From the NCBI GenBank assembly GCA_016875395.1, contig VGRF01000028.1, forward strand, positions 1 to 59,973: a DNA stretch of 59,973 nucleotides, given 5' to 3'. The translations under genes and the position numbers were made by a program. Shown in pieces: positions 44,972 through 59,973 of the stretch (positions are counted from its first letter, which is position 1; each line of letters opens with the position of its first letter). The DNA is from Deltaproteobacteria bacterium (GTDB lineage: Bacteria > Myxococcota_A > UBA9160 > UBA6930). The notes beneath the pieces were generated by a model. The model made no database searches. It saw only the letters and a list, made by a program, of their open reading frames with translations, and was not told the origin of the DNA.

Positions 44972-46216
44972 TCACGCCTCGGGTGTGTACTTCACCGGCA
45001 TGCGCTTGATGCCCGCGATGAAGTTGCTGCGCTGGAACTCGGGGCGACCGATCGGCCGCATGTCCGGCAGGCGCGTTGCGATCTCTCGCAGGATGGAGCG
45101 CAGCTGCATGCGGGCGAGGTTCGCGCCGAGGCAGTAGTGCTCGCCGATGCCGAACGCGATGTGGTCGTTGTCCTTGCGCGTGATGTCGAAGCGCATCGCG
45201 CTCTCGCCGAACACCTCCTCGTCGCGATTCGCGGAGGGGTAGGAGAGGTAGAGCTTGTCGCCCTTCGCGATGCGCTGGCCGCGAATCTCGGTGTCTGCCA
45301 TCGCGGTGCGCCGGAACATCATCACGGGCGGCGAGAAGCGCAGCACCTCCTCGATCGCGCCTTCGAGGTAGCGGTCGACGTCGCTCGTGAGCAGCTTCCA
45401 CTGCTCCGGGTGCTCGAACATGAGGCGCATGAACTGCGAAGTCGCGTTGCGAGTCGTCTCGTTGCCCGCGACGCAAAGCAACACGAAGAAGTTGTTGAGC
45501 TCGAGCTCCGTCAGCGCCTCGCCTTCGACCGAGCCGTTCGCGAGCGCGCTCAGCAGCGTGTCGTCGGGCTTCGCCTTCTTCTGCGCCACGAGCTGGTTGC
45601 AGTAGAGCCACATCTGCATCGCGGTCGTCTTCGGGTCGACGGCGCGCATGTCGGCGTCGTCGGCGCCGATCATCTGGTTCGACCATTCGAAGATCTGTTT
45701 GCGCATCTCGAGGGGGATCCCGACCAGCTCGCAGATCAGCGTGAGCGGCAGCTCGCACGCGAGGTGCTCCACGAACTCGCACTCGCCCTTCTCCGCGATC
45801 GCGTCGACGGCCGCGCGGGCGTGACTGCGAATCGTCGGCTCGAGCTTCTCCACCATGCGCGGCGTGAAGCCGCGCTGCACGAGGCGGCGGTACTTCACGT
45901 GCTGCGGCGGATCCATCACGAGCATCGTCATGCGCTGGCCCGCGAGATCCTCGTCGTTCATCTCCCAGACGTAGGGGCCGCGCTCCGCGGAAGAGAACAG
46001 CTTCGGATTGCGCGAGACGTGAATCACGTCCGCGTGCTTGGAGAGCACCCAGAAGCCCTGCGTGACGTGCGAGATCGTCTTCTGCACCGCAGGCACCGGG
46101 CTCCAGTGGACGGGCGCCTCGCGCCGCAGCACGCGCAGGTACTCGTGCGGCGGGCCGCCGTGCGCCACGAACAGGTCGGGATCCGCGAGGTCGAGATCGC
46201 CGGGGCGGAGTGGCAT
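44972..46216 (-). CDS. Cytochrome P450
   Basis: 414 residues from the ATG at 46216 with AGGAGA six bases upstream. The haem-binding loop FGIGEHYCLGANLAR (axial Cys near 362), the oxygen-activation I-helix AGNETTRN and the ExxR motif in EEVLR are all present. The sequence resembles the soluble bacterial CYP125/CYP142-type group that hydroxylates steroid or terpenoid side chains, but the substrate is not fixed by sequence alone. A redox partner is not adjacent. It is divergent from a TetR regulator and near CoA-ester genes, suggesting a catabolic role. Confidence 0.93.
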   Translation of the reverse strand: MPLRPGDLDLADPDLFVAHGGPPHEYLRVLRREAPVHWSPVPAVQKTISHVTQGFWVLSKHADVIHVSRNPKLFSSAERGPYVWEMNDEDLAGQRMTMLVMDPPQHVKYRRLVQRGFTPRMVEKLEPTIRSHARAAVDAIAEKGECEFVEHLACELPLTLICELVGIPLEMRKQIFEWSNQMIGADDADMRAVDPKTTAMQMWLYCNQLVAQKKAKPDDTLLSALANGSVEGEALTELELNNFFVLLCVAGNETTRNATSQFMRLMFEHPEQWKLLTSDVDRYLEGAIEEVLRFSPPVMMFRRTAMADTEIRGQRIAKGDKLYLSYPSANRDEEVFGESAMRFDITRKDNDHIAFGIGEHYCLGANLARMQLRSILREIATRLPDMRPIGRPEFQRSNFIAGIKRMPVKYTPEA

Positions 46217-46302
46217 GGGTTTCTCCTAGATTGGGCGCGTGCCCTCGGTGTGATCGGGTCGCAAGGACCCCGAGTTGAGCCGGGGGGACAGCATGTTCAA
46301 GG

Positions 46303-46313
46303 TATAAGACACC
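46303..46313 (+). promoter_or_regulatory. -10 box of a likely leaderless tetR transcript
   Basis: TATAAG at 46303-46308 is a good -10 element and lies only five bases before the ATG at 46314, so transcription would begin at or next to the start codon. No convincing -35 box is seen at the usual distance (TTGAGC lies 22 bases upstream of it). The rest of the 97-base gap to the P450 gene contains a GC-rich imperfect hairpin. Confidence 0.5.
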
Positions 46314-46967
46314 ATGTCCGATGCCAAAGGCCAGCCCAAGGGCCCACGCGCGAAGTCGCGAGCAGACGTGCTGCGCGACTTCCGCGCCGACCAGATCCTC
46401 GAAGCCGCGACCGTCGTGTTCGGAAAGCTCGGCTACGCGGAAGCCTCGATCGAGCGCATCGCGGAAGAGGCCGGCGTCGCGCGCAGCACGGTCTACGTCT
46501 ACTTCCCGAACAAGGACCTGCTGCTGAACCAGTGCCTCGCGCGGCACCGCGTCGTTCTCGGCGAGCGCGTTCGCACGGCGGTCGAGGCCGCGACGGGCTT
46601 CGAGGCGCGGCTCGCGGCGTTCTTCACCGCCGTGCTCGGCTACGTCGGCAACGTGAGTGAGTTCTTCCGCGCGCTGATGGGCGTGCGCGGCGTCGACCCG
46701 TTCTTCGGCGTCGGCAGCGGAGACGTGCCCACACCCGAGCTCGAGGCGCTGCGCGCCGAGTTCACCGCGCTGCTCGAGCGCGTGTTCGCCGACGCGATCG
46801 CCGCCGGCGAGCTCGCTCCCGAGTCGGTGCCGAGCGCGTTCGAAGCGCTCGCGCTGCTGCTCTACGGCGCGCTGATGCGCCGCACGATCGCGCCGGGCCC
46901 CGCCGACGCCTCGGCCGAAGCGGCGCAGCTCGCCCGCATCTACCTTCACGGCGTCGCGTGTCGATGA
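46314..46967 (+). CDS. TetR-family transcriptional regulator
   Basis: 217 residues, ATG at 46314. The helix-turn-helix is typical: FRADQILEAATVVFGKLGYA, SIERIAEEAGVARSTVYVYF, PNKDLLL. The C-terminal domain is long and hydrophobic, suitable for a lipophilic ligand such as a CoA thioester or steroid. Divergent from the P450 and 172 bases upstream of the amidohydrolase gene, it probably controls this catabolic cluster. Confidence 0.93.
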   Translation: MSDAKGQPKGPRAKSRADVLRDFRADQILEAATVVFGKLGYAEASIERIAEEAGVARSTVYVYFPNKDLLLNQCLARHRVVLGERVRTAVEAATGFEARLAAFFTAVLGYVGNVSEFFRALMGVRGVDPFFGVGSGDVPTPELEALRAEFTALLERVFADAIAAGELAPESVPSAFEALALLLYGALMRRTIAPGPADASAEAAQLARIYLHGVACR

Positions 46968-47139
46968 CCTCGATCGCCACAGCTCAGCTTGACCCAAGCC
47001 ACACGCCGAAGGATCAGCTGCGGCGCGAAGCGCCGTCGGCTGCATCCGCACTGCAACACGCGCGCGATCATCGGGATCGATCCCCTCAGCTGCGCGCACG
47101 AGCGAGCCAACACGGCGTCACGCACTGAGGAGTCCCTCC

Positions 47140-48297
47140 ATGCTCTTTGACCGTTATCGCGTCATCGACATCGACACGCACATCACCGAGCCGGCCGGCG
47201 TGTGGACCGATCGCGTCTCCAAGAAGTGGGGCGATCGCGTGCCGCACATCAAGAACGTCGGCGGCGTCGATCTCTGGTTCATCGGCGATCAGACCGTGGG
47301 CATGCCGGGCGCGTACTCGGCGGCGGGCCACACCGGGACGTTTCCGGACATGCGCAAGAGTTATCAGGACATTCCGGCCGCGATGTACGACGCGAAGGCC
47401 CGCCTCGCGTGGCTCGACGAAGAGAAGCTCTGGGCGAACGTGATCTATCCCAACGTCGGCGGCTTCGGCGCGGGCGGCTTCCTGCGGCTCGGCGACCGCG
47501 CGCTCATGCTCGAGTGCGTGCAGGCCTACAACGACTTCTTGCTCGAGTGGTGCAGCGCGGACCCGCGCCGCCTCGTGCCGGTGATGGCGACGCCGTTCTG
47601 GGACGTCGCCGAGTCGGTGCGCGAGATCCAGCGCTGCGCCGGCAAGGGCTACAAGGCCGTGATCTTCTGCAACGACCCGAAGGACCACGGCCAGCCCGTC
47701 CTGCGCGACAAGCACTGGGATCCGATCTGGGCGACTGCGCAAGAAGCCGGTCTCTCGATCAGCTTCCACATCGGCGGCGGCAGCCTCGCCGAGCAGTTCA
47801 ACGACCCGGCGAACATCGGCCAGAAGGCGAACTTCGCTCGCGTCTCGACGATGGCGACGCTCGACAACGCGAGGTGCATCTCGGACCTCATTCTCTCCGG
47901 CATTCCGCACCGCTTCCCGCGCCTTCCGCTCGTGTCGGTCGAGAGCGGCGTCGGCTGGGTGCCGTACCTGCTCGAGTCGCTCGACTGGCAGTGGCAGAAC
48001 AACGGCGTCCGCGGCGAGCACCCCGAGTACGACCTGCTGCCGAGCGATTACTTCCGCCGCCAGATCTACACGAGCTTCTGGTTCGAAGAGGCGGGCCTCG
48101 AGAAGGCGATCGAGCTGTACCCCGACAACATCATGTTCGAGACGGACTACCCGCATCCGACCTGTCAGGCGCCCGGCCCGGCGAGCGCGGGCACGCATCC
48201 GCGCATCTATGCCGAGAAGGCGCTCGCGGGAGTGCCGGAGAGCTCGCTCGCGAAGGTGCTGCAGACGACGGCGCAGAAGTTGTACGGGCTTCACTAG
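47140..48297 (+). CDS. Amidohydrolase family protein (Amidohydro_2)
   Basis: 385 residues, ATG at 47140 with GGAG nine bases upstream. The metal-binding start DIDTHITEP and the late FETDYPHPTC segment with the conserved Asp mark the PF04909 branch, which includes ACMSD-type decarboxylases and hydrolases of aromatic or CoA-linked intermediates. SISFHIGGGS supplies a central histidine. In many soil and marine bacteria such genes cluster with CoA transferases and P450s for degradation of steroids or aromatics; the substrate here is unknown. Confidence 0.9.
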   Translation: MLFDRYRVIDIDTHITEPAGVWTDRVSKKWGDRVPHIKNVGGVDLWFIGDQTVGMPGAYSAAGHTGTFPDMRKSYQDIPAAMYDAKARLAWLDEEKLWANVIYPNVGGFGAGGFLRLGDRALMLECVQAYNDFLLEWCSADPRRLVPVMATPFWDVAESVREIQRCAGKGYKAVIFCNDPKDHGQPVLRDKHWDPIWATAQEAGLSISFHIGGGSLAEQFNDPANIGQKANFARVSTMATLDNARCISDLILSGIPHRFPRLPLVSVESGVGWVPYLLESLDWQWQNNGVRGEHPEYDLLPSDYFRRQIYTSFWFEEAGLEKAIELYPDNIMFETDYPHPTCQAPGPASAGTHPRIYAEKALAGVPESSLAKVLQTTAQKLYGLH

Positions 48298-48318
48298 CAA
48301 CTCCGCGCGGAGTCGAGC

Positions 48319-49707
48319 ATGCACGGTCTGCGCGGGGTTCGCGTCGTCGACTTCACCACGGGCATCGCAGGCCCGTACTGCACGAAGCTCTTCGCCGACG
48401 CCGGCGCCGAGGTCGTGCTGGTGGAGCCGCGCGGCGCGGCGAGCGAGCGCACGCCGCTGTTTCGCTTCCTCCACGCGAGCAAGCGCGCCGTCACCGGCGC
48501 GCCGGGCGGCGCGCACGTCGCCGATCTCGTCGCGAGCGCCGATCTCGTCGTCGAAGACTTCGCCGCGAGCGCGCCGCTCGATCGCGCCGCGCTGCTCGCG
48601 CGCCACCCGAGCCTCGTGCTCTGCTCGATCTCGCCGTACGGCCTGACAGGTCCGTACGCCTCGCGGCCCGCGACCGAGTTCACGATTCAGGCCGAGTGCG
48701 GATCGATCGCGGTGCGCGGGCGGCCGGGGCTGGAGCCGTATCAGGCGGGCGGGCGCGTCACGTACTGGTTCGGCGGCGTGATGGCGGCGGTCGCTGCGGC
48801 GGGCGCGGTGCATCGCGCCCGCACGACGGGACACGGCGAGCACGTCGATGTCTCGCTGCAGGAAGCGATGGCGCTCGCGACGACCACGTACGCCGATCTC
48901 TCGTCGTGGCTGATGGGGCGCGCGAAGCCGCCGTTCGCGGGGCATAGCATCGAGACGCCATCGATCGAGCCGACGGCGGACGGCTTCGTCGGCTTCAACA
49001 CGAACACGGCGCAGCAGTTCAGCGACATCCTGCTCATGATCGAGCGGCCCGACCTGCGCGAGTCGCACGAGTTCGACACGGTCGTGCAGCGCCTCACGCG
49101 CCTCGCCGAGTGGGAAGCGATCGTGCACGCCTTCACGCGGCGGCACACGACGGCGGAGATCATCGAGCAGGCCGCGTTGTTACGGATTCCCGTCTCGCCC
49201 GTGTGCAGCGGCGAGACCGTGCTCGAGCATCTCGCGCTCTCGATCGAGACCGACGCGCAGTGGCGCGCGTTGTTGGGCGCGCTCGCTGCGCCCGCGTGGG
49301 CGACCGGCTTCCATGACGCCTCGCTCGCCGAGCGACGCGCGGCGCACGCCAAGCTCGACGAGGCCCTGCGTGCGCACTTCGCGGCGCGCGAGCTGGGCGC
49401 GAGCGTCGCGCAGCTCCTCGCGGCGGGTGTGCCCGCGGCGGAGGTGCAGGACGCGCGCTTCCTCAGCGAGCACCCGCAGATCGCGTCGCGCGGCTTCTGT
49501 GAGCGCGTACCGCATCCCGTCGTGGGCGACCTGCCGATCATGACTGTGCCGTTCCGCTACGCATCTGTTTCGCGCTGGCTTCAGCGCGCGGAGCCGACGC
49601 TCGGGCAGCACAACCACGAGTTGTTGGGGGAGCTCGGCTACGGCGACGCGCAGGTGGCGGAGCTCGAAGCGGAACGAGTGATCGGCACGCGGCCGATCGG
49701 GGTTTGA
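48319..49707 (+). CDS. CaiB/BaiF-type class III CoA transferase
   Basis: 462 residues, ATG at 48319. It shows the family start LRGVRVVDFTTGIAGPYCTKLFADAGAEVV, the SPYGLTGPYASRPATEF region and the catalytic aspartate in HVDVSLQEAMAL. These enzymes move CoA between thioesters and free acids. The gene follows the amidohydrolase by 21 bases and is likely cotranscribed, so it may activate or recycle an acid in the same pathway as the P450. Confidence 0.93.
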   Translation: MHGLRGVRVVDFTTGIAGPYCTKLFADAGAEVVLVEPRGAASERTPLFRFLHASKRAVTGAPGGAHVADLVASADLVVEDFAASAPLDRAALLARHPSLVLCSISPYGLTGPYASRPATEFTIQAECGSIAVRGRPGLEPYQAGGRVTYWFGGVMAAVAAAGAVHRARTTGHGEHVDVSLQEAMALATTTYADLSSWLMGRAKPPFAGHSIETPSIEPTADGFVGFNTNTAQQFSDILLMIERPDLRESHEFDTVVQRLTRLAEWEAIVHAFTRRHTTAEIIEQAALLRIPVSPVCSGETVLEHLALSIETDAQWRALLGALAAPAWATGFHDASLAERRAAHAKLDEALRAHFAARELGASVAQLLAAGVPAAEVQDARFLSEHPQIASRGFCERVPHPVVGDLPIMTVPFRYASVSRWLQRAEPTLGQHNHELLGELGYGDAQVAELEAERVIGTRPIGV

Positions 49708-49866: not shown

Positions 49867-49925
49867 TCAATCAACTTGAAGATCGCCCGGTTAACTTCTC
49901 CGCGGTGCCGACAAGGGGATTTCGC

Positions 49926-51905
49926 GTGGTGAGAATCAACCTCGTTCCGCTTCAGGCGCGCTTAACCCAACTGCCCAGAACCACGAAGCGGGCGATTGCG
50001 TTGGGCGCAGACCTCGCTGCGACTGCCCTGGCACTGGCTCTCTCGGGTGCCCTCGTGTTGGGCGATCGAGCACGCGACCAGCTTCCGCTCGCCTACTTGG
50101 CGATCGCGCCACTCACCGCGATCCCCGCATTCGTGAAGTTCGGATTGTATCGGGCGGTGATTCGGTACATCGGAACGAAGGCGCTGGCGGCCGTCGTCGC
50201 TGGCGTCTCGATCTCTGTCGTGCTGTTGGGCGTGATCGACGCATTAAGCGATGCGATTCGCCTGCCTGTCGCGGTGTTCGCGATGTACTGGTCCTTCGCG
50301 TTGATCTACGTGGCAGGCAGCCGCTTCATCGCGCGAGTCGCGCTGAATCGCGAGCAGCGCAACGGCGCGCGCGTTGCCGTGTATGGCGCGGGCAAGGCGG
50401 GGGCATTGCTTGCGTCGGCGCTTCGCAACGCGCCTGAGTTCACCCCGGTGGCATTCGTCGATGACGATGAGGGGCTCGTCGGCAGCTTTATCGGCGGTCT
50501 CGAGGTCTCCGCGGTGACGGAGCTTCCGCGCTTGGCGGAGCAACTCGGCGTCTCCGAGGTGCTGCTCGCGATTCCGTCCGCATCCCGCCAGCGTCGACGC
50601 GAGATCCTCGCCGGCCTCGAGGGCCTCGGACTGCGTGTTCGCACGATCCCAGACCTCTCGGAGATCGCTGCGGGCCGAGCGCAGGTCGGTGAGCTGCGCG
50701 AAGTAGAGGCGAGTGATTTATTGGGGCGAGACGCCGTGGTGCCCCACGAGGGGCTCCTCCGCGCGCGTGTGGATGGAAAAGCCGTTCTCGTGACGGGCGC
50801 CGGCGGCTCCATTGGTTCCGAGCTGTGTCGACAGGTCGTCAAGCTGCAACCGCGGCGACTAGTGCTCGTTGATCAGTCGGAGCCAGCGCTGTATCAGGTC
50901 GAGCGGGAGCTCCAGAAGGGCGCCCAGGAATCCGGGTCCCCGCTCGAGATCACGGCACTTCTAGGAAACGCCGCGGACAGATTCCGGATGCGCGAGGTGT
51001 TCGAGACCTTCGCTGTGCAGACCGTCTACCACGCAGCGGCGTACAAGCACGTGCCGATCGTCGAGGAGAATGCAATCGCGGGGATCGCAAACAACGCGAT
51101 GGCGACTTGGCGTATCGCGGACGCCGCGCGTGAGGCTGAGGTGGAGACGTTCGTCTTGATATCGACCGACAAGGCCGTGAACCCGACGAGCGTGATGGGC
51201 GCGACGAAGCGCCTCGCGGAGCTGATCGTTCAAGCGCTCCACGCCGAGAAATGCGCGATGCGGTGCTGCATCGTGCGATTCGGGAATGTGCTGGAGTCCT
51301 CGGGGTCCGTCGTGCCGTTGTTCCGCGAGCAGATCGCCGCAGGCGGGCCCGTTACGGTCACGCATCCGGACATCATCCGTTACTTCATGACGATCGAGGA
51401 AGCGGCCTCGGTCGTGATTCAGGCGAGTGCGCTCGCGACGGGCGGAGAGGTGTTTTTGCTCGACATGGGAGAACCCGTTCGAATCCGCGGCCTCGCTCGC
51501 CGGATGATTCACCTCTCCGGGCTCAGTGTCCGCGACGCGGACAATCCGGATGGCGACATCGAGATCCAGTACACGGGGCTCCGGCCCGCGGAGAAACTCA
51601 AGGAGGAGCTCCTCGTCTCGCCGAACTCCGTGCGCACGCAGCATCCGATGATCATGCGGGCCGTCGAAGCCTTTACACCTTGGGACCAGCTACGCCGAAT
51701 TCTCTTGGAAATCGACGAGGCGTTGCGAGTGTCTAACGTGCGCCGCGCACTCGAGCTGCTCTCGAAGGCCGTTCCTGAGTACGCGCCTAGCCTGTCTGCA
51801 GGCGACGTGGTGGCTCAGGAGCGAGCGGGGACTTCGCGTCTGTCGGTGCGGCCGCGGGCTCGCGACGCCGATCCGCACGGCCCGCGGGTTGGCACTACAA
51901 GCTGA
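49926..51905 (+). CDS. Membrane-bound nucleotide-sugar 4,6-dehydratase, CapD/PglF type
   Basis: 659 residues from the GTG at 49926 (AAGGGG seven bases upstream; GTG 49905 is an alternative). About four membrane helices (25-140) precede a first Rossmann-like domain (VAVYGAGKAGALL) and then an extended SDR domain with VTGAGGSIGSELC, the substitution of the SDR Tyr-x-x-x-Lys by the PglF/WbpM-type region STDKAVNPTSVMGATKR, and GLRPAEKLKEEL. It makes the 4-keto-6-deoxy intermediate of sugars such as bacillosamine or fucosamine for surface glycans. First gene of the polysaccharide locus. Confidence 0.93.
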   Translation: MVRINLVPLQARLTQLPRTTKRAIALGADLAATALALALSGALVLGDRARDQLPLAYLAIAPLTAIPAFVKFGLYRAVIRYIGTKALAAVVAGVSISVVLLGVIDALSDAIRLPVAVFAMYWSFALIYVAGSRFIARVALNREQRNGARVAVYGAGKAGALLASALRNAPEFTPVAFVDDDEGLVGSFIGGLEVSAVTELPRLAEQLGVSEVLLAIPSASRQRRREILAGLEGLGLRVRTIPDLSEIAAGRAQVGELREVEASDLLGRDAVVPHEGLLRARVDGKAVLVTGAGGSIGSELCRQVVKLQPRRLVLVDQSEPALYQVERELQKGAQESGSPLEITALLGNAADRFRMREVFETFAVQTVYHAAAYKHVPIVEENAIAGIANNAMATWRIADAAREAEVETFVLISTDKAVNPTSVMGATKRLAELIVQALHAEKCAMRCCIVRFGNVLESSGSVVPLFREQIAAGGPVTVTHPDIIRYFMTIEEAASVVIQASALATGGEVFLLDMGEPVRIRGLARRMIHLSGLSVRDADNPDGDIEIQYTGLRPAEKLKEELLVSPNSVRTQHPMIMRAVEAFTPWDQLRRILLEIDEALRVSNVRRALELLSKAVPEYAPSLSAGDVVAQERAGTSRLSVRPRARDADPHGPRVGTTS

Positions 51906-51943: not shown

Positions 51944-53281
51944 GTGCAAGAGGAGCGCTTGGCTAGCAGAATCCGTCGCGTTGCAATGGGATGGGTCCGT
52001 TCTCTTGGTGCGGGCGCAGTCTTCACCCTGATCACGCTCGCCTTCCTCGAAGCCGCGCTGCGAATCGTCCCCGCGGCGATCCCCACGAGCCTGCTCAAGC
52101 GCTTCGAGCCTGGGATCCGCAGCGGCATCGCCCAGCGTCGGGGATTGCCTCACGAGGGTCAGACTTATCTCGTGGAGCGGAGCGACGGCGGTCCGCCACT
52201 GCGGGTGTTCAAGCCGAACTCCCGCATCCGCTTTGAGTTCGAGGACACCGGCGAGCGCTGTGAGCTGGTCATGGACGCCAGCGGCTTCTGTAACGCCTCG
52301 GGCGACAACGCCCGCGCGCGATCCCCTGCGCTCGTTGCGATCGGTGACTCGTTCACCGCGTGCCATCCACCCGAGCCCGCCGCGACGTGGCCCTCCGTCC
52401 TCGCGCGCCGCCTCGGAACGCGGGCACACAACCTCGGGCGGGGCGGGTACGGCCCGTACGAGTATGTCCAGCTGCTCGAGACCTTCGGCGTCGCGCTCGA
52501 GCCGTCGCTGGTGATCATGCAGATCTACGAGGGAAACGACCTGCGGGATGCGGTGCGCCATCACCGCTACCTGCGTGCCGACATCGAGGAGCGGGAGCGA
52601 TACTCGGAGCGCGCGAGCTTTCGGCGTTATCGCTTCGAGCCTGCTCCGTTTCTCGGGAACGCACTGGGCCGCCGCAGCTACGCCTATAACCTCGCGGTCG
52701 TCGCGATCGCGCGCGGGTCCTCTTCGCTGGCAGAGGCTGCGATCGGGGACGCGCGCGAGCGCGTGAACTTCCGGTACCGGCTGCGCTTTCCGGACGCGGT
52801 CGTCGCGATGAACGTGCGTAACACGGACCAAGACGAGGTGCGAAGCGCGCGTGAGCTCGCCGCCGGCCGGGTCTCGCTAGACGCGCTGGATGGTGCCCTC
52901 GAGGCCTTCGCCGCCGCGGGGCGGCGCCGCGGGTTCCGCGCCGTGATCTCATACGCGCCCTCCGCGCACACGGCTTACGCGGAGTTCGTGGAGTTCGAGG
53001 ATCCAACGCTGGCACGTCTAATGCCGCAGTTTTCGCAAGCGCAGCGCACGCACATCCGTCAGCGTGCGGAGGCGCTCGGCGTCGAGTTCGTCGATCTCAC
53101 ACCAGCGTTTCACGAGGCGGCCCGGCGCGAGCGCGCTGCGCGGCTGCTCTACTTCCCCATCAACGTCCACTTCACTCCGACCGGTCACGCCGTAGCGGCG
53201 GAAGCGGTTGCGCGGGCGCTCGGATCCGCTTCGTCGGCGCCGACGACCGAAAAGACTACGCCGGCCAGCGAGGCGCGATGA
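51944..53281 (+). CDS. Membrane-anchored SGNH-hydrolase-like protein
   Basis: 445 residues, GTG at 51944. One membrane helix near residues 17-45 anchors it, with the rest in the periplasm. The SGNH/GDSL pattern is visible: AIGDSFTAC (Ser), LGRGGYGPYEYVQLL, YEGNDLRDA (Asn) and, near the end, VHFTPTGHAVAAEAV (His). In polysaccharide loci such proteins are usually O-acetyltransferases or esterases of the glycan, like AlgJ/AlgX. The catalytic Asp of the Asp-x-x-His pair is not obvious. It overlaps the convergent gene by 26 bases. Confidence 0.78.
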   Translation: MQEERLASRIRRVAMGWVRSLGAGAVFTLITLAFLEAALRIVPAAIPTSLLKRFEPGIRSGIAQRRGLPHEGQTYLVERSDGGPPLRVFKPNSRIRFEFEDTGERCELVMDASGFCNASGDNARARSPALVAIGDSFTACHPPEPAATWPSVLARRLGTRAHNLGRGGYGPYEYVQLLETFGVALEPSLVIMQIYEGNDLRDAVRHHRYLRADIEERERYSERASFRRYRFEPAPFLGNALGRRSYAYNLAVVAIARGSSSLAEAAIGDARERVNFRYRLRFPDAVVAMNVRNTDQDEVRSARELAAGRVSLDALDGALEAFAAAGRRRGFRAVISYAPSAHTAYAEFVEFEDPTLARLMPQFSQAQRTHIRQRAEALGVEFVDLTPAFHEAARRERAARLLYFPINVHFTPTGHAVAAEAVARALGSASSAPTTEKTTPASEAR

Positions 53282-54509
53282 CGCGTGCGCCCGGATGTCG
53301 TGCGGAGAGGTAGCTCGCCCACTTCGCCTGTTCTGCCTCAACGAACGCGGTGTTCGCGTAGTCCTCCAGGAGCTGCTCGCGATGCCGGCGCAGCGCGGGC
53401 CTCCGCTTCGCGCCAGAACGTGCCGCGGCCTCCTCGCTGGCTCGGTGTTGGCGCAAGAGCCGTTCGGGGGATGGCTGCAGGGAGACGACGGTCGTCTCGT
53501 GTGCGCACTCCATGAAGTCCAGGGCAGAATCGCGCTCGAACGTGTGGGTCGCCGTCTCGATCGGGCGCATCGTGTCGTACTCGAGCACGAGCCCGTCGAG
53601 CCGAGGCACGTCGAGACGTGTGCCGTCGATCGCATGCAGTGCCTCGCTACCGATACTCGCTGCCCGAAGCAGCGGCCAGCGCTCGCAGTCGGGGGGGAGC
53701 TGGGATCGAATCGCCGCAGGAAGCGTTCCCGCGCTCAGCTGTTCGAGGAACGTCGTCTTTCCGGCGGCCGTGGGACCGCTGACGACCAGCAGGCGTGAGA
53801 TCTCGCGTCGCTTCGCAATTGCGATGAAGCGGCCTTTGAAGCCCGACGGCATCACTTCGACCGCCGAAAACAACTTCGTGTGATCGCGCAGCAAGTGCAG
53901 CACCGCGTGGGGCGTGAAGAAGAACTTCTGCGCGTTGGTGCGGACAGCGGTGCTGCCAACGCCCGATGCGAGGTAGAGGATCGGTAAACGAGTCACGACT
54001 CGCCGCGCAAAGAATCCCAGGCCGAGCTTGCGCGCGTCCCGGGGATCGAGGGACGCGACTTCGAGCACCAGCTTCTCGCGCGCAGCCCGCGCGAGGCGCC
54101 GGATGACGCCGATCGGATCGAACAGATGGTGGACGACGTTGAGGCACAACACGACGTCGTAGGTGCCCGGGAGCGCGCACGATTCGATGTCGGCGTGCTG
54201 GAAGCTCACCGCGAGGCCGTTCATCTCGGCGAGAGCGCGTGCTTGGCGCACTTTGTTTGCGTCGACCTCGATGCCGTGCGCCGACACAGCCCCACGCCTG
54301 AGCGCCTCTTGGCAGAAGTATCCGAGGTAGCTGCCGACATCGAGCACCGACTTCCCCGCGACATCTCGGAAGATCACGTCGCACATGCCCGCCCGACTCT
54401 CGCCAGGTGTCGCCAATCCGTGAGGCAGCTCGATCCGCTGGTACGCGAGCCGTTCGCGTTCGAGGAAGCGCTCGATCTCGCCTCTGGTCCAAGCAGGTAC
54501 GGTCGTCAC
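53256..54509 (-). CDS. SAM methyltransferase fused to a P-loop kinase-like domain
   Basis: 417 residues from the GTG at 54509 with GGGAG seven bases upstream. Residues about 1-235 are a class I methyltransferase similar to CmoB-type enzymes (YQRIELPHGLATPG; SVLDVGSYLGYFCQEALRRG; LCLNVVHHLFDP). Residues about 240-417 are a P-loop domain with Walker A VVSGPTAAGKTTFLEQL and a charged, helical end. The fold may be a sugar or nucleoside kinase, or a sulfate-activating APS-kinase-like enzyme; the second motif is not clear enough to say. It probably decorates the surface glycan. Start GTG 54509 is better than the longer frame to 54569. Confidence 0.75.
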   Translation of the reverse strand: MTTVPAWTRGEIERFLERERLAYQRIELPHGLATPGESRAGMCDVIFRDVAGKSVLDVGSYLGYFCQEALRRGAVSAHGIEVDANKVRQARALAEMNGLAVSFQHADIESCALPGTYDVVLCLNVVHHLFDPIGVIRRLARAAREKLVLEVASLDPRDARKLGLGFFARRVVTRLPILYLASGVGSTAVRTNAQKFFFTPHAVLHLLRDHTKLFSAVEVMPSGFKGRFIAIAKRREISRLLVVSGPTAAGKTTFLEQLSAGTLPAAIRSQLPPDCERWPLLRAASIGSEALHAIDGTRLDVPRLDGLVLEYDTMRPIETATHTFERDSALDFMECAHETTVVSLQPSPERLLRQHRASEEAAARSGAKRRPALRRHREQLLEDYANTAFVEAEQAKWASYLSARHPGARVIAPRWPA

Positions 54510-54613
54510 AGGGATTCTCCCGCCGCGTTCGGTCCATCTCGAGGAACAGCGTCTCCGAGTGGCGCACATTTGGGTAGCCGGTCACGCCATGCACTGCTCT
54601 GGGGACCCGGGAG

Positions 54614-55462
54614 TTGTCGGTAAGCCGCTGTTCGACGACGCTCTCGGCGATGAGGCACTGGCTTCGCGTCCAGCGGCTGCGCGCGGTCGCACGGATTCGC
54701 CGCCGTCGTTACCGCGTACTCGCCGGCAGCGGAAACGTGCGGATTGCGCCGCTCATCAGCCCGTTGCGGTACGACATCGTCGTGCGCCGCGACTTCCTTT
54801 CCGGCCTAAAGGAGCGACTCGGCGCGCCGTTGCCCGAGCTGGCTGCTTGGGCAAAGACCACTCCGTACTGGAATTGGTTCCGCGACGTTCGCTGGGTCCG
54901 CTCCTCGCGAAGGCTTCACGCATTGCATGTTGGGATCGACGCTGCGTTCGAAGCGCGTGTGGCGGCGGCTGCTGCGCTTTGCAGGTCTTTTGCCAGGCGT
55001 GGCTTCGACGAGCGTTTCCCGATCAATCTGAAGAGCGCCGACCGCGTGCTCGGCACGCAGACCGGGAAGCGAGCAGAGGCGCAGCTCTTCGCGGGAGGAG
55101 GCTGTCACCGCATTGCTCTGCTCTGGATCGCGGGCGCCCGCGAACTCCAGCCGAGTCAGTACATCGTCCATCACTACCGCGAGTTGGTTCCGCACGACAA
55201 CACGTGGCCGCTACGAGCGCTCTTCGCAGGCCGCGGCTCGGAGTACGTCCGATTCGTGTCGAGCGCGTATATGGGCAGCGAGATGGAGGATGCCGACGCG
55301 TTGCTCTCGTGGGTGGTTGCGAATGCGCCCGAGCGCCTCGTCGGCCTCCGGGAGTTGCTGGAGGTGGATGGGATCGCACAGCCTGTTGCCCTGCATTCGC
55401 CGGCCATCGGAGCCGGAGAACGCGACGGATCGACCCGCGAACGCGTTGCGCCGGTATCGTGA
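54614..55462 (+). CDS. Unknown protein of the polysaccharide locus, ParB-like motif
   Basis: 282 residues if read from 54614; ATG 54650 gives 270 and may be correct, since the extra residues are weak. An Arg-rich N-terminus (RLRAVARIRRRRYRVL) is followed by a globular domain. INLKSADRV and then GGCHRIALLWIAGARELQP resemble the ParB/Srx-like signature (Gly-x-His-Arg) found in some proteins of glycan clusters. No membrane helix. Followed after six bases by the TagB/TagF-like gene. Function unknown. Confidence 0.65.
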   Translation: MSVSRCSTTLSAMRHWLRVQRLRAVARIRRRRYRVLAGSGNVRIAPLISPLRYDIVVRRDFLSGLKERLGAPLPELAAWAKTTPYWNWFRDVRWVRSSRRLHALHVGIDAAFEARVAAAAALCRSFARRGFDERFPINLKSADRVLGTQTGKRAEAQLFAGGGCHRIALLWIAGARELQPSQYIVHHYRELVPHDNTWPLRALFAGRGSEYVRFVSSAYMGSEMEDADALLSWVVANAPERLVGLRELLEVDGIAQPVALHSPAIGAGERDGSTRERVAPVS

Positions 55463-55468
55463 CCTTGC

Positions 55469-56626
55469 ATGCGGGTGTGCTTCCTCTTCAATCACTACGC
55501 AACTCACCAAGTGGCCCACGCCGCACCCTTTGCGTTTGAACTGTCGCGGCGCCACGAAAACGCGGAAGTCACGGTCGCGTGTACGAGTGATGCGCAGTGC
55601 GAGGCTGCGGCGCGGATCGCGACGCTATATGCGGGCCACCGCGTCGAGTTCGTGCGTCTCGAGATTCCGTGGTTCGAGCGGTACGTCGCGTCCGCCGTCG
55701 GGCGTCTGACGTTCTTCGGGAAACGGCGGATCCTCTCGCGCAACCGCGAGTTCTTTCGCGCTTTCGACGCCGTGGTGTCGCCGGAACGCACCGTGTTGCA
55801 GCTGCGGACGCGCTTCGGCCTCGATCGCCTGATCATCATCAACACGCGCCACGGCCAGGGGGATCGCCTCGGGAGCTTCGACGAGCTCGCCCTCGAGGTC
55901 GACTTGACCCTCTTCGCCGGGCGGAAGTATGTCGACCTCTTCGAGGAGCGCGGTCTGCTTCGCAAGGGCGCCTACGCGATCGTCGGCTACCCGAAGTTCG
56001 AGGTTTACGGACCGAGCTCACGGCAAGCTTGGTTTCCGAACCGCAAACCGGTGGTGCTCTACAACCCACACTTCGACGCGACGGAGTCGTCATGGCAAAA
56101 GCAGGGCCGTGCGGCGCTCGATTGGTTCGCGGCGCAGACCGAGTACAACTTGATCCTCGCGCCTCACACTCTTCTCTTCGAGCGCTCGGTGCGGCACGGC
56201 GCTCGGCTTCCTCGCCGTTTCCGCGAGATCGAGCACATTCGGATCGACCTCGGGAGCGAAGCGAGCAACGACATGACCTACACGCGGGGCGCTGACATCT
56301 ACCTCGGCGACGCGAGCAGTCAGGTCTACGAGTTCATCGCGGAGCCGAGACCCTGCGTCTTCATCGACGCGCAGAACGCGCGCAGCCGCAGTCCAGCCCG
56401 CTATCGCCACTGGCACTTCGGTCCGGTGATCACGCGCGCGAGTGAGCTGGGCCCGGCACTGCGCGCCGCCCGCGACGGGTTTGCGGGATACGCGGTCGAA
56501 CAGCGCGAGGCGTTCGAATACACGTTCTCCTTCGACCGCGAGCGCAGCGCGGCGCAGCGGGGGGCCGATGCAATTGCCGAGTTCCTCCAGCGGGGGCGCA
56601 TCGAGTCGGAGTGCTTCTTGCGCTAG
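55469..56626 (+). CDS. TagB/TagF-like glycerophosphotransferase or glycosyltransferase
   Basis: 385 residues, ATG at 55469, six bases after the previous gene. The two-domain GT-B shape is suggested by a first half with repeated FxxxL strands and a second half where GYPKFEVYG, LAPHTLLFE and TYTRGADIYLGDASSQVYEF correspond to the PK...APH...Asp-Ser-Ser motifs of CDP-glycerol glycerophosphotransferases. It likely transfers glycerol-phosphate or a sugar to the surface polymer. Overlaps the convergent sulfotransferase by four bases. Confidence 0.65.
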   Translation: MRVCFLFNHYATHQVAHAAPFAFELSRRHENAEVTVACTSDAQCEAAARIATLYAGHRVEFVRLEIPWFERYVASAVGRLTFFGKRRILSRNREFFRAFDAVVSPERTVLQLRTRFGLDRLIIINTRHGQGDRLGSFDELALEVDLTLFAGRKYVDLFEERGLLRKGAYAIVGYPKFEVYGPSSRQAWFPNRKPVVLYNPHFDATESSWQKQGRAALDWFAAQTEYNLILAPHTLLFERSVRHGARLPRRFREIEHIRIDLGSEASNDMTYTRGADIYLGDASSQVYEFIAEPRPCVFIDAQNARSRSPARYRHWHFGPVITRASELGPALRAARDGFAGYAVEQREAFEYTFSFDRERSAAQRGADAIAEFLQRGRIESECFLR

Positions 56627-57396
56627 TCGCCGGGCGGCTGAGGGGCCTCGCGGCTGCGCCGGCGCCCCTCCAAGTAGGCGTTCGCCCAATTGCTGTTGCC
56701 GACGATGAGCCTGTTGGCATCTGCGAGCAAGCGCTTCGCTACGAGACCGCGGCGGTGCCAGAGCATGCGCGCGAAGCTGCGTCCTCCCGCCGCTTGCGAG
56801 CGCGAGAAGCGTTCCTGCTGGAGCTCACGAACGCCTGACACGCGCAGACCGAAGTAGGTCTCGATTCGAGTGAGCGACTGTTCGGGCGCGGCCACGAGCT
56901 CGGCGGAGTCCAGCACGAGCTTCTCGCCGTCGTGCGCGCGCCACCCGATTGCGAAGTTCGACAGCTCGCGCAGCAGGCCTGTCTCCCGCGCTCGCTCCTG
57001 CCAGCCAGCTTCGCTGAAGCAGTAAGCGAACTCGTAGCTCTTCGTCGGCCAAGCGCCGGACTCTTCGCCGCGCCGGTAAGCGGACACGATCTCCTGAGCG
57101 TCGCGCAACAGGATGACCTTCGGCGTACCGCGCAGCACGGCTTGGTTTCGCGGCGTCGGTGGGAAGTGGAACTTGGCGAGCAGCTCGCGGCTCGCTGTCA
57201 CACGGGCTACGGAGTCATCGAGCTCGACGAAATCGCGGCGATGAAACTGTGCCACGTGCCAGTAGTCGTCGGCGATCGGACGGCGCAGCAGCACTTCGTC
57301 TCGGATCTCGCGCGTGCGGATCGGCAGCGCGTGCGCCTTGCTCAGCGTCGCGACTAGCGCTGTGCTCGCGCTTTTCGGGATCGCGATGATCAGCAC
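56623..57396 (-). CDS. Sulfotransferase
   Basis: 257 residues from the GTG at 57396, the first start that precedes the fold; the frame is open further but without a signal. The 5'-phosphosulfate loop reads IIAIPKSASTALVATL and the 3'-phosphate loop RDAQEIVSAYRRG, as in PAPS-dependent sulfotransferases. It probably sulfates a sugar of the surface polysaccharide, using PAPS made elsewhere. It follows the Wzi gene on the same strand by 29 bases. Confidence 0.82.
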   Translation of the reverse strand: MLIIAIPKSASTALVATLSKAHALPIRTREIRDEVLLRRPIADDYWHVAQFHRRDFVELDDSVARVTASRELLAKFHFPPTPRNQAVLRGTPKVILLRDAQEIVSAYRRGEESGAWPTKSYEFAYCFSEAGWQERARETGLLRELSNFAIGWRAHDGEKLVLDSAELVAAPEQSLTRIETYFGLRVSGVRELQQERFSRSQAAGGRSFARMLWHRRGLVAKRLLADANRLIVGNSNWANAYLEGRRRSREAPQPPGD

Positions 57397-57425
57397 GGTC
57401 TGGCCGCGAGGCGCGCGCTGCGCAT

Positions 57426-59393
57426 CTAGAAGCCTCGGCTGAGGTAAAGCGAGAGACCGACCACCCCGCGGTAAGAGGAGGACCGGTTGCCGATCGGGTC
57501 CTGCGGGAGCAGATCGTCTCGGGCGATGTTGGGCGCGTAGCGAGCGTCGAGCCCCACGTGCCAGCCCGGCAGCAGATCGCGCCACTGGGCTCCAGCCCCG
57601 ACATAGATTCCGTACGCCGGCGTGGCGAGCGCCCAGCGCGCGGCGCCGAAGAAGCCCGACACCGCGAAGTGGCGCCCGATCCGCACGCGGTAGTCGAGGA
57701 TCCGCACACCGACCAGCCAGTCGTCATCGACTTCGTCGAGCTCGAGTCGGACCCCTAGGTCTTGCCGCGCTGAAATCGCCCGCCGCGCACCGACAGCGAC
57801 ATGCAGGCCCGGCGCCCAGCTCGTCTTGCGCAGCGGCAGATTGCGGTCGAGGTCGATCCACACGCGGCTGAGGTTTGCGCCCGCGTCGACGAACAGCTCG
57901 GCGCCGCGTGGCCGCTCCGGCTTCTCCTCCCCTGTGCCTGGTGTGACAGTCGCGGCCGTGGTCGACTCGTGGTTCGGTGAGTACCGCACCAGAGCGAGCA
58001 CGCGAGAGAAGCTCTTGCCGTCGGTGTCTCGCCCCGCTTGGACCTCGGCACCCAGCGAGAGCTCGCGCCACGGGCGCGTATACCGCAGCGAGAAGTCGTG
58101 GCCGCGCTCGTAGGTGATGGATGAGTACGACTCGTTCTCAATCGTGCGATAGCGGAGCTGAAACGCGCCGCCGAACGCGGGTCGCCAACCGACGCGGAGC
58201 ATGTGCGTCTGTGCACCGACTGCGTCGCCCTTGCGACGCTGATCTCCGCCCCAGTGACCGACGATGCGCCCTTCGTTCGAGAGCCCATCTCCATAGAGCG
58301 GGTGCACGTACCAAGCGTTCTGCCACTCGGACACTTCGTAGGTCAGATCGAAGTCTTCGAAGAGAGACGGAAAGTCGATCCCGATTGAGGCCGCTGCGTT
58401 GCCGAGCAGATAGTTCTCTCGGCTCAGCGTGTCCTCGCCGCCATGCTCGACGTACACCGCAAACGGAACGGGGCCAGGGAATACGAAGCGGCTAGTGATC
58501 GAGGCGAGCTGATTTCCGAACTGCTCCGTGATTCCGCCACCGGGAAGCACATTGTCGCGGCCGGCGGGGTCGAAGAACGCCTTGGCCAGCTCTTTGAACG
58601 ACGAAGGGCGAGAGCCGCCGCCGAACTGCATGATGCGACTCGCACCAATCGACCAACCGGGAGTCGGTTCGGCCGAGAGATGAACGCCAGAGATCCCGGG
58701 ATGGCCAGAAGTGCGGCCGTCTGCGTCGAGAATCGAGTCGCTGTGCGACATGCGCGCGGCAAAGACCACGTAGCGAAAGCCGAAGCGCGTCAGCGGCTCG
58801 TAGTTCGAGATCGTGACCGAGGGCATCGTCGGGGCTTCGGTCGAGAGCAGGAGGGCGCTGTCCGTGAACGGAGAGAGCCAATGATCTCGCCAGCCGACGT
58901 CGACCTGGAACTTGCTCCAGCCGACGCTCAGCAGAGACCCGGTGGGTGTCACGTCCCCGTCGAACGCGATTGCTCCCGCGGACACGATCGCGTGGTCGAA
59001 GGGCTGCCACTGGGCCCGCGCGGAGACCTCCCAAGCGCTGTCGCTTCGAAGGCCGTGCCGGTTGGCGATCACGGTGTCGGCGCCGCCCGTCGCCGCCCCC
59101 GCGAGCGCGGCGTGCGTCACCGAGAGCTTGCCCGTGTAGCGAGCGAGGATGCCGCTCACGCGTTGGCACAGGCGGGCGTCGATGCGGCACGCGCGGGGCA
59201 GTGCCTCGAGAACCACGGCAGCCGGTATCGGCCGCGTCAGATGCGCGACCCCCGCGAGGATCAACACGCGCTCGACGTCGAGCTCAGCCTCAGGGTCGAG
59301 GTTCTGAGGCAAGTAGGGGCTCGGCCCGCGCGCCAGTGCGGTCGCTGAAGCCAAGAAGCAGAGCACCGAAACCGCGAGGATGCGACGCAACAT
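57426..59393 (-). CDS. Wzi-like capsule assembly outer-membrane protein
   Basis: 655 residues from the ATG at 59393. A signal peptide (LAVSVLCFLASATALA) precedes a helical domain of about 90 residues, with one Cys pair (CRIDARLC), and a long beta-barrel region ending LSLYLSRGF with a C-terminal aromatic. The pattern fits the Wzi family (PF14052), an outer-membrane lectin that attaches capsule to the cell surface. Longer than E. coli Wzi by roughly 170 residues, which is common in other phyla. Divergent from the SLBB gene that starts 182 bases away. Confidence 0.85.
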   Translation of the reverse strand: MLRRILAVSVLCFLASATALARGPSPYLPQNLDPEAELDVERVLILAGVAHLTRPIPAAVVLEALPRACRIDARLCQRVSGILARYTGKLSVTHAALAGAATGGADTVIANRHGLRSDSAWEVSARAQWQPFDHAIVSAGAIAFDGDVTPTGSLLSVGWSKFQVDVGWRDHWLSPFTDSALLLSTEAPTMPSVTISNYEPLTRFGFRYVVFAARMSHSDSILDADGRTSGHPGISGVHLSAEPTPGWSIGASRIMQFGGGSRPSSFKELAKAFFDPAGRDNVLPGGGITEQFGNQLASITSRFVFPGPVPFAVYVEHGGEDTLSRENYLLGNAAASIGIDFPSLFEDFDLTYEVSEWQNAWYVHPLYGDGLSNEGRIVGHWGGDQRRKGDAVGAQTHMLRVGWRPAFGGAFQLRYRTIENESYSSITYERGHDFSLRYTRPWRELSLGAEVQAGRDTDGKSFSRVLALVRYSPNHESTTAATVTPGTGEEKPERPRGAELFVDAGANLSRVWIDLDRNLPLRKTSWAPGLHVAVGARRAISARQDLGVRLELDEVDDDWLVGVRILDYRVRIGRHFAVSGFFGAARWALATPAYGIYVGAGAQWRDLLPGWHVGLDARYAPNIARDDLLPQDPIGNRSSSYRGVVGLSLYLSRGF

Positions 59394-59575
59394 GATCGGT
59401 CGAGCCTAACTGAATCGAGCTGCGGGAAAGACGCGAAGGCAACTGGCGGGGCGCCACGAAACCCCGTTGCGCCGAGCCGGGTTCATGCGAGGATGCGGGG
59501 CCCTCCGGTCGCGTGTTGAGCGCTGGCGGGTCGCGTTCGACGACGGGAAGCGTTCACGGAGAGGCAGTTTCAGCG

Positions 59576-59973
59576 GTGACGAGACTCGAAGCAGCAGTAA
59601 CCGGGACGGTGCGCAGCGCGACTCGGGTTCTCCAAACACTCGCGCTCCCGCTGCTCTTGATGATCCCCGCGCTCGCTCCCGCCCAAGAGTCAGAGGTCAC
59701 CGAGGAGCAGACGGAGCTCTTCAAGAGCCTGCCGCCGGAGCAGCAGCAGGCCATCCTCGAGGAGTTCCTTCGATCCAGAGCGGCGGGCGAGCCGACTCGC
59801 GAGGAATCACGACAAGGCGACGCGCGCCGCCGCCAAGCTCTCGATGGAGCCGCAGACAAACGCCGACTCTCACCCGAGCGGCAGCCGCAACCAGAGGAGG
59901 AGCGTCGGGAGCCGAAGCTGGAGCGCGGCAGTTCCGTGATCGTCGATCTCGATCTCAAGGGTCGGCCTGAGTC
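59576..59973 (+). CDS. Probable SLBB-type polysaccharide export protein, N-terminal part
   Basis: A frame open from the GTG at 59576 to the right edge (about 132 residues), cut by the window. A hydrophobic signal segment (TRVLQTLALPLLLMIPALAP) is followed by a helical charged stretch, EEQTELFKSLPPEQQQAIL, and then KLERGSSVIVDLDL. That order (signal, LPPEQQQ helix, start of a beta domain) is the usual N-terminus of Wza-like SLBB export proteins. No stop is seen. The ribosome site (GGAGAGG) lies about 13 bases upstream. The family call is a prediction from the visible third only. Confidence 0.6.
   Translation, partial: MTRLEAAVTGTVRSATRVLQTLALPLLLMIPALAPAQESEVTEEQTELFKSLPPEQQQAILEEFLRSRAAGEPTREESRQGDARRRQALDGAADKRRLSPERQPQPEEERREPKLERGSSVIVDLDLKGRPE

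Follow-up and report, generated by a model that had tools for sequence, protein, structure and literature searches.

A methyltransferase joined to a P-loop domain in a bacterial glycan locus: a possible WbdD-like glycan-modifying enzyme

What might a single polypeptide do that joins a methyltransferase to a P-loop domain and is encoded among glycan genes? Such a gene is found towards the end of the window, by which we mean the whole stretch of 59,973 nucleotides analysed here (contig VGRF01000028.1, positions 1 to 59,973, of the Deltaproteobacteria bacterium assembly GCA_016875395.1). The gene and its two parts are as follows.

53256..54509, minus strand (read from 54509 to 53256): fusion gene, 417 aa plus stop, with a GTG start at 54509 and the stop codon at 53258-53256 (from the translation)
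53802..54509, minus strand: class I SAM-dependent methyltransferase domain, residues 1-236 (Pfam PF13847, PF13649, PF13489 and PF08241 over cut-off)
53259..53801, minus strand: P-loop domain, residues 237-417 (about 238-417), with a Walker A motif and a low-confidence kinase-like fold

An earlier note on this DNA had given the span 53256-54509, which is correct, and the gene lies on the minus strand. The GTG codon at 54509 is preceded by GGGAG at a spacing of 7 nt, and an alternative in-frame ATG at 54569 would extend the product to 437 aa. The presence of both domains in one polypeptide, claimed in the same note, was confirmed: the open frame is uninterrupted, and the Walker-A domain directly follows the methyltransferase and runs to the stop codon. 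This fusion in a single ORF is known from one genome.

The N-terminal domain is a class I SAM-dependent methyltransferase. It carries motif I (VLDVGSYLGYF, residues 55-65) and NVVHH (residues 124-128), PF13847 scored 47.5 bits against a cut-off of 27, and the SAM methyltransferase models of Pfam matched with E values of about 1e-12. It had been called CmoB-like; the methyltransferase class stands, while CmoB turned out to be only a loose fit. TIGR04290, the best NCBIfam model, and CmoB are among the best profile matches of this domain, but the scores are far under the curated cut-offs (52.1 vs 300 bits for TIGR04290, and 36.5 vs 275 and 35.8 vs 209 bits for the two CmoB models). The match to the UbiG model was also well below its NCBIfam cut-off, and none of the NCBIfam matches listed for the fusion protein reached the respective cut-off.

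The C-terminal domain has a Walker A motif, GPTAAGKTT (residues 245-253), preceded by a hydrophobic strand (LLVVSGPTAAGKTT), so that this feature of the P-loop NTPase superfamily is present. When residues 237-417 were shuffled 200,000 times, G-x4-GK[ST] occurred in 0.07% of the shuffled sequences, and together with a hydrophobic run before it in 0.01%; thus, the motif is unlikely to be a product of chance. Further along the domain, LVLEYDTMRP (residues 307-316) is a candidate Walker-B or substrate strand, and VVSLQPSPERLLRQHRAS is found at residues 341-358, followed by a basic helical stretch. No clear family had been recognized here by eye, and the family search led to the same result: nothing significant was found for this domain in Pfam, NCBIfam, PHROGs or PDB sequences. 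The weak matches (AAA_16, AAA_22, T2SSE, guanylate kinase, MutS and ComGA) span only the P-loop and the closely following residues, that of the guanylate kinase model (E 0.1) being over the P-loop only, and the best PDB sequence match, a thymidylate kinase (E 0.32), is not significant.

Fold prediction, which the earlier note had suggested as a check, pointed to nucleotide and nucleoside kinases at low confidence. The single-sequence model of residues 230-417 had a pLDDT of 55.3 and a pTM of 0.50, and apart from its initial 50 residues and the C-terminal helices, much of it was below pLDDT 50; for the whole protein, the values were 39.0 and 0.25. In this low-confidence model, a 36-residue helix is placed at about 369-404 inside the P-loop domain, and the last predicted strand is RHPGARVI (404-411), six residues after which the ORF stops. 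Foldseek gave no match to the model at E 0.001 or better; its first rows included APE1195, adenylate kinases, a deoxyadenosine kinase and APS kinases, together with unrelated and designed P-loop proteins. In VIA-align, adenylate, thymidylate and deoxynucleoside kinases made up most of the top rows (for adenylate kinase, Z 7.2 with an rmsd of 3.9, 137 aligned); according to the tool, models that lack a clear match commonly have their best Z at 7 to 8. The predicted fold is consistent with a small-molecule P-loop kinase, and we read no more into it.

Relatives were sought in a phylum sample of 377 genomes including the source genome, the number of candidates scored in each genome being limited to 9 for the P-loop domain and to 4 for the full protein. 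At E 0.01, the P-loop domain matched 8 of the 377 genomes, namely its own and seven others. The seven scored 17.5-22.2 bits against 386 for self and were judged to be chance matches, stop codons lying inside the match in four of them. For four (L002, L003, L005 and L007) the surrounding ORFs were inspected, and the other three (L004, L006 and L008) were judged by a BLAST-based Walker-A check alone; in this check, a Walker A within 90 residues of the matched stretch was found only for L005, which from its sequence we read as the ATPase of an ABC transporter, the matched stretch lying downstream of its P-loop. No relative of the P-loop domain was found in the 376 other genomes of the sample. A search of 90 genomes of the class, most of them already in the phylum sample, gave two matches at E 0.003 (self and one repeated chance match), and the source genome contained one further match, at E 0.203 and 36% over 39 residues.

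With the full fusion protein as query, matches were obtained in 2 of 79 genomes from the order (E 1e-12) and in 15 of the 377 phylum genomes (E 1e-8), self included in both counts. All 17 non-self matches in the phylum cover the methyltransferase part only, and G-x4-GK[ST] was found in none of the 17 within 350 residues downstream in frame, stops being read through. Among plasmid records, 42 matched the whole protein, none over at least 80% of its length, and the 30 listed of these 42 all lie within residues 35-136; the P-loop domain had no match in plasmid and phage records. Single-sequence patterns picked up 15 stretches in genome_contigs, a collection of 84,980 species with a single genome each, and degenerate patterns picked up 594 there and 138 in viral_contigs; no relative was among any of these. 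Since such scans need short conserved stretches and the patterns rest on guessed variability, a remote family could be missed by them. The earlier note had held that a fusion occurring only here would count against its reading, and as far as the phylum, order, class, plasmid, phage and pattern searches reach, it does occur only here. Because no relative was found, the active sites are without support from conservation.

The neighbouring genes are the following.

49905..51905, plus strand: nucleotide-sugar dehydratase, presumably of the CapD/WbpM type (PF02719, Polysacc_synt_2, E 3.1e-111)
51944..53281, plus strand: SGNH/GDSL hydrolase or AlgX-like protein (PF13472, E 4.8e-12; PF16822, E 2.4e-7)
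54614..55462, plus strand: orphan gene of 282 aa, divergent from the fusion gene, no family
55469..56626, plus strand: possible CDP-glycerol glycerophosphotransferase-like enzyme (relatives in the genomes G019, 49%, and G056, 37%)
56623..57585, minus strand: sulfotransferase-like protein (PF00685, E 0.0013, 18.6 bits, below the cut-off of 22)
57426..59393, minus strand: capsule assembly protein Wzi (PF14052, E 5.3e-31)

The view that this is a glycan locus held, with the Polysacc_synt_2 dehydratase, the SGNH/AlgX-like protein and Wzi all over the Pfam cut-offs. The nearby sulfotransferase fared less well: PF00685 does match, but at 18.6 bits vs the 22 of its cut-off. This protein contains PKSASTAL, which we take to resemble the PAPS-site motif. 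As listed, its ORF overlaps the Wzi gene by 160 bases, and its true start is probably inside the listed ORF. The SGNH/AlgX-like gene and the fusion gene overlap by 26 bp at their 3' ends. For the 282-aa gene, no Pfam, NCBIfam or plasmid match was found. At the far end, on the plus strand, 59513-59971 holds a protein start cut by the contig end; the visible stretch has no Pfam match at E 0.01, and by eye the product may be a polysaccharide export protein. As the contig stops at 59973, the remainder of the locus is not visible.

The earlier note knew of no such fusion in a described polysaccharide system. Methyltransferase-kinase fusions have, however, been described in O-antigen systems with other kinase types, namely WbdD (PMC3482155) and ORF6 (PMC11231755). 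WbdD of E. coli O9a is a bifunctional kinase/methyltransferase that acts as the terminator of the O-antigen chain: the terminal mannose is phosphorylated first, and the phosphate is then methylated (PMC3482155). Of its 708 aa, residues 1-210 form a methyltransferase, 211-459 a eukaryotic-kinase-like domain and 460-708 a coiled-coil region; H132 and H133 are both needed in vitro for phosphate methylation, and in NodS and RebM this site is occupied by two His or by two Tyr (PMC3482155). ORF6 of K. pneumoniae O7, also a terminator, combines a methyltransferase with a formerly unannotated kinase and gives a methyl-phosphate product; this kinase is AmiN-like and has a catalytic Asp, and C-terminal to it come a carbohydrate-binding domain, a coiled coil and modules of the glycosyltransferase type (PMC11231755). 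The kinase part of such enzymes can thus differ, as ORF6 uses a different kinase from WbdD. The word "P-loop" has 0 occurrences in the text of PMC11231755, and the searches of open-licence papers brought up none that names a methyltransferase joined to a P-loop kinase. Fusions of a methyltransferase and a kinase are therefore already known, and what is possibly new here is a P-loop domain as the ATP-using part.

For a direct comparison, we used a 708-aa protein encoded in the O9-type locus of E. coli HS. Its annotation says no more than class I SAM-dependent methyltransferase, and it was taken as WbdD on account of its length and the agreement of nine residues (Y16, N34, Q35, R36, D82, H132, H133, H197 and R203). 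In this single comparison, the methyltransferase of the fusion protein matched at 34% over 108 residues (E 1e-7), and its His-His 127-128 aligned with H132-H133. His-His is common at that site in class I methyltransferases. Among the 17 phylum methyltransferase relatives, 16 align there, and none of the 16 has His-His at the aligned place (Tyr-His in 8). The pairwise alignment gave no confidently placed counterpart of R203 or Y16.

The fusion protein and WbdD are alike in having an N-terminal class I methyltransferase directly before an ATP-using domain, in belonging to a polysaccharide locus, and in the His-His at the same alignment place. They differ in the kinase: that of WbdD is eukaryotic-kinase-like, PF01636 and PF00069 both matching the protein from E. 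coli HS, whereas a P-loop domain is present here; with the same Pfam library that matches WbdD, the fusion protein gave neither an APH nor a Pkinase match up to E 1. They also differ in length and ending: WbdD has 708 aa with a coiled-coil region after the kinase, whereas the fusion protein has 417 aa and ends with the P-loop domain. With ORF6, the fusion protein shares the joining of a methyltransferase to a kinase in the same domain order, and differs in having the P-loop domain in place of the AmiN-like kinase with its catalytic Asp and the carbohydrate-binding, coiled-coil and glycosyltransferase modules. Wzt_C (PF14524) gave 0 matches at E 0.01 in the source genome (96.26% complete), and 3 of 14 control genomes match. 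Since neither a WbdD-like coiled-coil region after the domain nor a Wzt_C protein in the genome was found, a function as a chain-length terminator is unlikely. Since three defining features of the WbdD terminators (a protein-kinase- or APH-like kinase, a long coiled coil and a Wzt_C exporter) were not found here, we treat the fusion protein as an analogue of WbdD and not as a member of its family.

On this basis, we tentatively propose that the fusion protein may be a bifunctional WbdD-like glycan-modifying enzyme with a different ATP-using part, in a version that yields a methyl-phosphate. What is directly seen is one open frame, a SAM-methyltransferase profile match, a Walker A motif and a glycan neighbourhood. 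A phosphate-plus-methyl decoration of the glycan appears most likely to us, because of the domain order shared with WbdD and ORF6, the aligned His-His and the presence of an ATP-using part of another kind; methyl-phosphate itself we hold to be less likely than not. With ATP, the P-loop domain would phosphorylate a sugar or polyol hydroxyl of a glycan precursor, and the N-terminal domain would transfer a methyl group from SAM onto that phosphate or, less likely, onto a sugar hydroxyl of the same molecule; the product would be a methyl-phosphate or methyl-plus-phosphate decoration. A sugar-kinase-type role of the P-loop domain is possible. An O-methyl phosphoramidate pathway like that of Campylobacter (PMC8743553) was also considered. 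A more specific form of the proposal, which we hold to be unlikely, would be that methyl-phosphate decoration has taken up a third type of kinase, from a different fold: a P-loop kinase with a phosphate methyltransferase, without a coiled coil or a CBM-bearing ABC exporter, that would act on the precursor or repeat unit and not on the chain end. If the proposal is true, a phosphate-plus-methyl glycan decoration is built with a third kind of kinase, of a fold unlike the two described; such decoration also occurs beyond the ABC-transporter O-antigen systems in which it was discovered; and a candidate enzyme for the surface glycans of this lineage can be named. If it is wrong, there is one orphan fusion carrying a divergent P-loop domain.

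The two domains may instead perform two independent steps of one pathway, the methyltransferase O-methylating a sugar hydroxyl and the P-loop kinase phosphorylating a free monosaccharide, polyol or nucleotide for activation. This is in line with the NCBIfam matches, in which UbiG, a quinone O-methyltransferase, and CmoB are the best ones after TIGR04290, and with the fold neighbours found for the C-terminal domain, which are small-molecule kinases. Zeta toxins belong to the P-loop kinases. Kinases of sugar nucleotides do exist, for example zeta/PezT acting on UDP-GlcNAc (PMC4179160). However, two separate steps leave the reason for the fusion unexplained, and the dehydratase is the only recognisable sugar-precursor enzyme among the scanned neighbours; we regard this explanation as possible and rather doubtful. 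A role as nucleotide or nucleoside kinase that has nothing to do with glycan decoration, for which the adenylate, thymidylate and deoxynucleoside kinases at the top of the structural neighbours and the non-significant thymidylate kinase match (E 0.32) would speak, seems improbable, as no nucleotide-kinase model matched significantly in Pfam or NCBIfam and the gene sits among glycan genes. The P-loop domain may also be a non-kinase, nucleotide-binding regulatory part or a degenerating domain: neither a family match nor a relative was found and, as noted above, large parts of the model have a pLDDT below 50. Such a reading is made distinctly unlikely by the intact Walker A after a hydrophobic strand, by the codon pattern of a maintained gene, and by the kinase-like order of elements in the model.

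It had further been suggested that the C-terminal domain is APS-kinase-like and may thereby supply PAPS to the neighbouring sulfotransferase. The sulfotransferase-like gene nearby fits this idea, as does the first Foldseek match, 2yvu (APE1195, E 2.4e-3), which we take to be an APS kinase, other APS kinases recurring lower in the list; at low confidence, the predicted fold of the domain resembles the P-loop kinase fold of APS kinase (CysC, PF01583). Nevertheless, PF01583 is not among the matches of the fusion protein and gave nothing at E 0.01 on its contig, no APS-kinase model appears among the NCBIfam matches listed (25 for the whole protein and two for the domain alone), and no Foldseek match reached E 0.001. 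The genome encodes an APS-kinase domain elsewhere: the PF01583 search detected a 231.6-bit domain on contig C40, besides two weak matches on C18 and C13, so that PAPS supply does not need the P-loop domain. We find the APS-kinase role scarcely credible. Finally, the fusion might have been created by an error that joined a methyltransferase gene to a separate gene in the draft genome. The assembly consists of 96 contigs, the fusion was seen once and no relative of it was found, and in all 17 methyltransferase relatives a stop occurs 42-194 residues past the matched stretch. On the other hand, both parts share the same frame and the same codon-position bias, the third-position GC being 0.81 before residue 236 and 0.80 after it. 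Moreover, a codon scan found no ATG, GTG or TTG in codons 223-262, so that the second domain could not start alone there via a common start codon. We regard an assembly artefact as very improbable.

Two further observations concern the neighbourhood. The enzyme encoded at 55469-56626 and its two aligned counterparts (L015, 7835-8992; L016, 5830-6960) are divergent and retain conserved RHGxGD and GDxSSQVYEF; PF04464 was matched (E 0.0025) in one of these three members, which is not the source copy, and the source enzyme had no PDB match at E 0.1 or better. It was found in 4 of the 377 phylum genomes at E 1e-6, self included, the fourth (G124) weakly at 9.6e-7, and of the seven window genes compared with the contigs of G019 and G056 (11.5 and 9.0 kb), no further one had a matching ORF at E 0.01 or better. 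Before the glycan genes, the region 44972-49707 encodes a cytochrome P450 and a CoA-transferase III, both recognized by Pfam, and, by eye, a TetR-like and an amidohydrolase-like protein.
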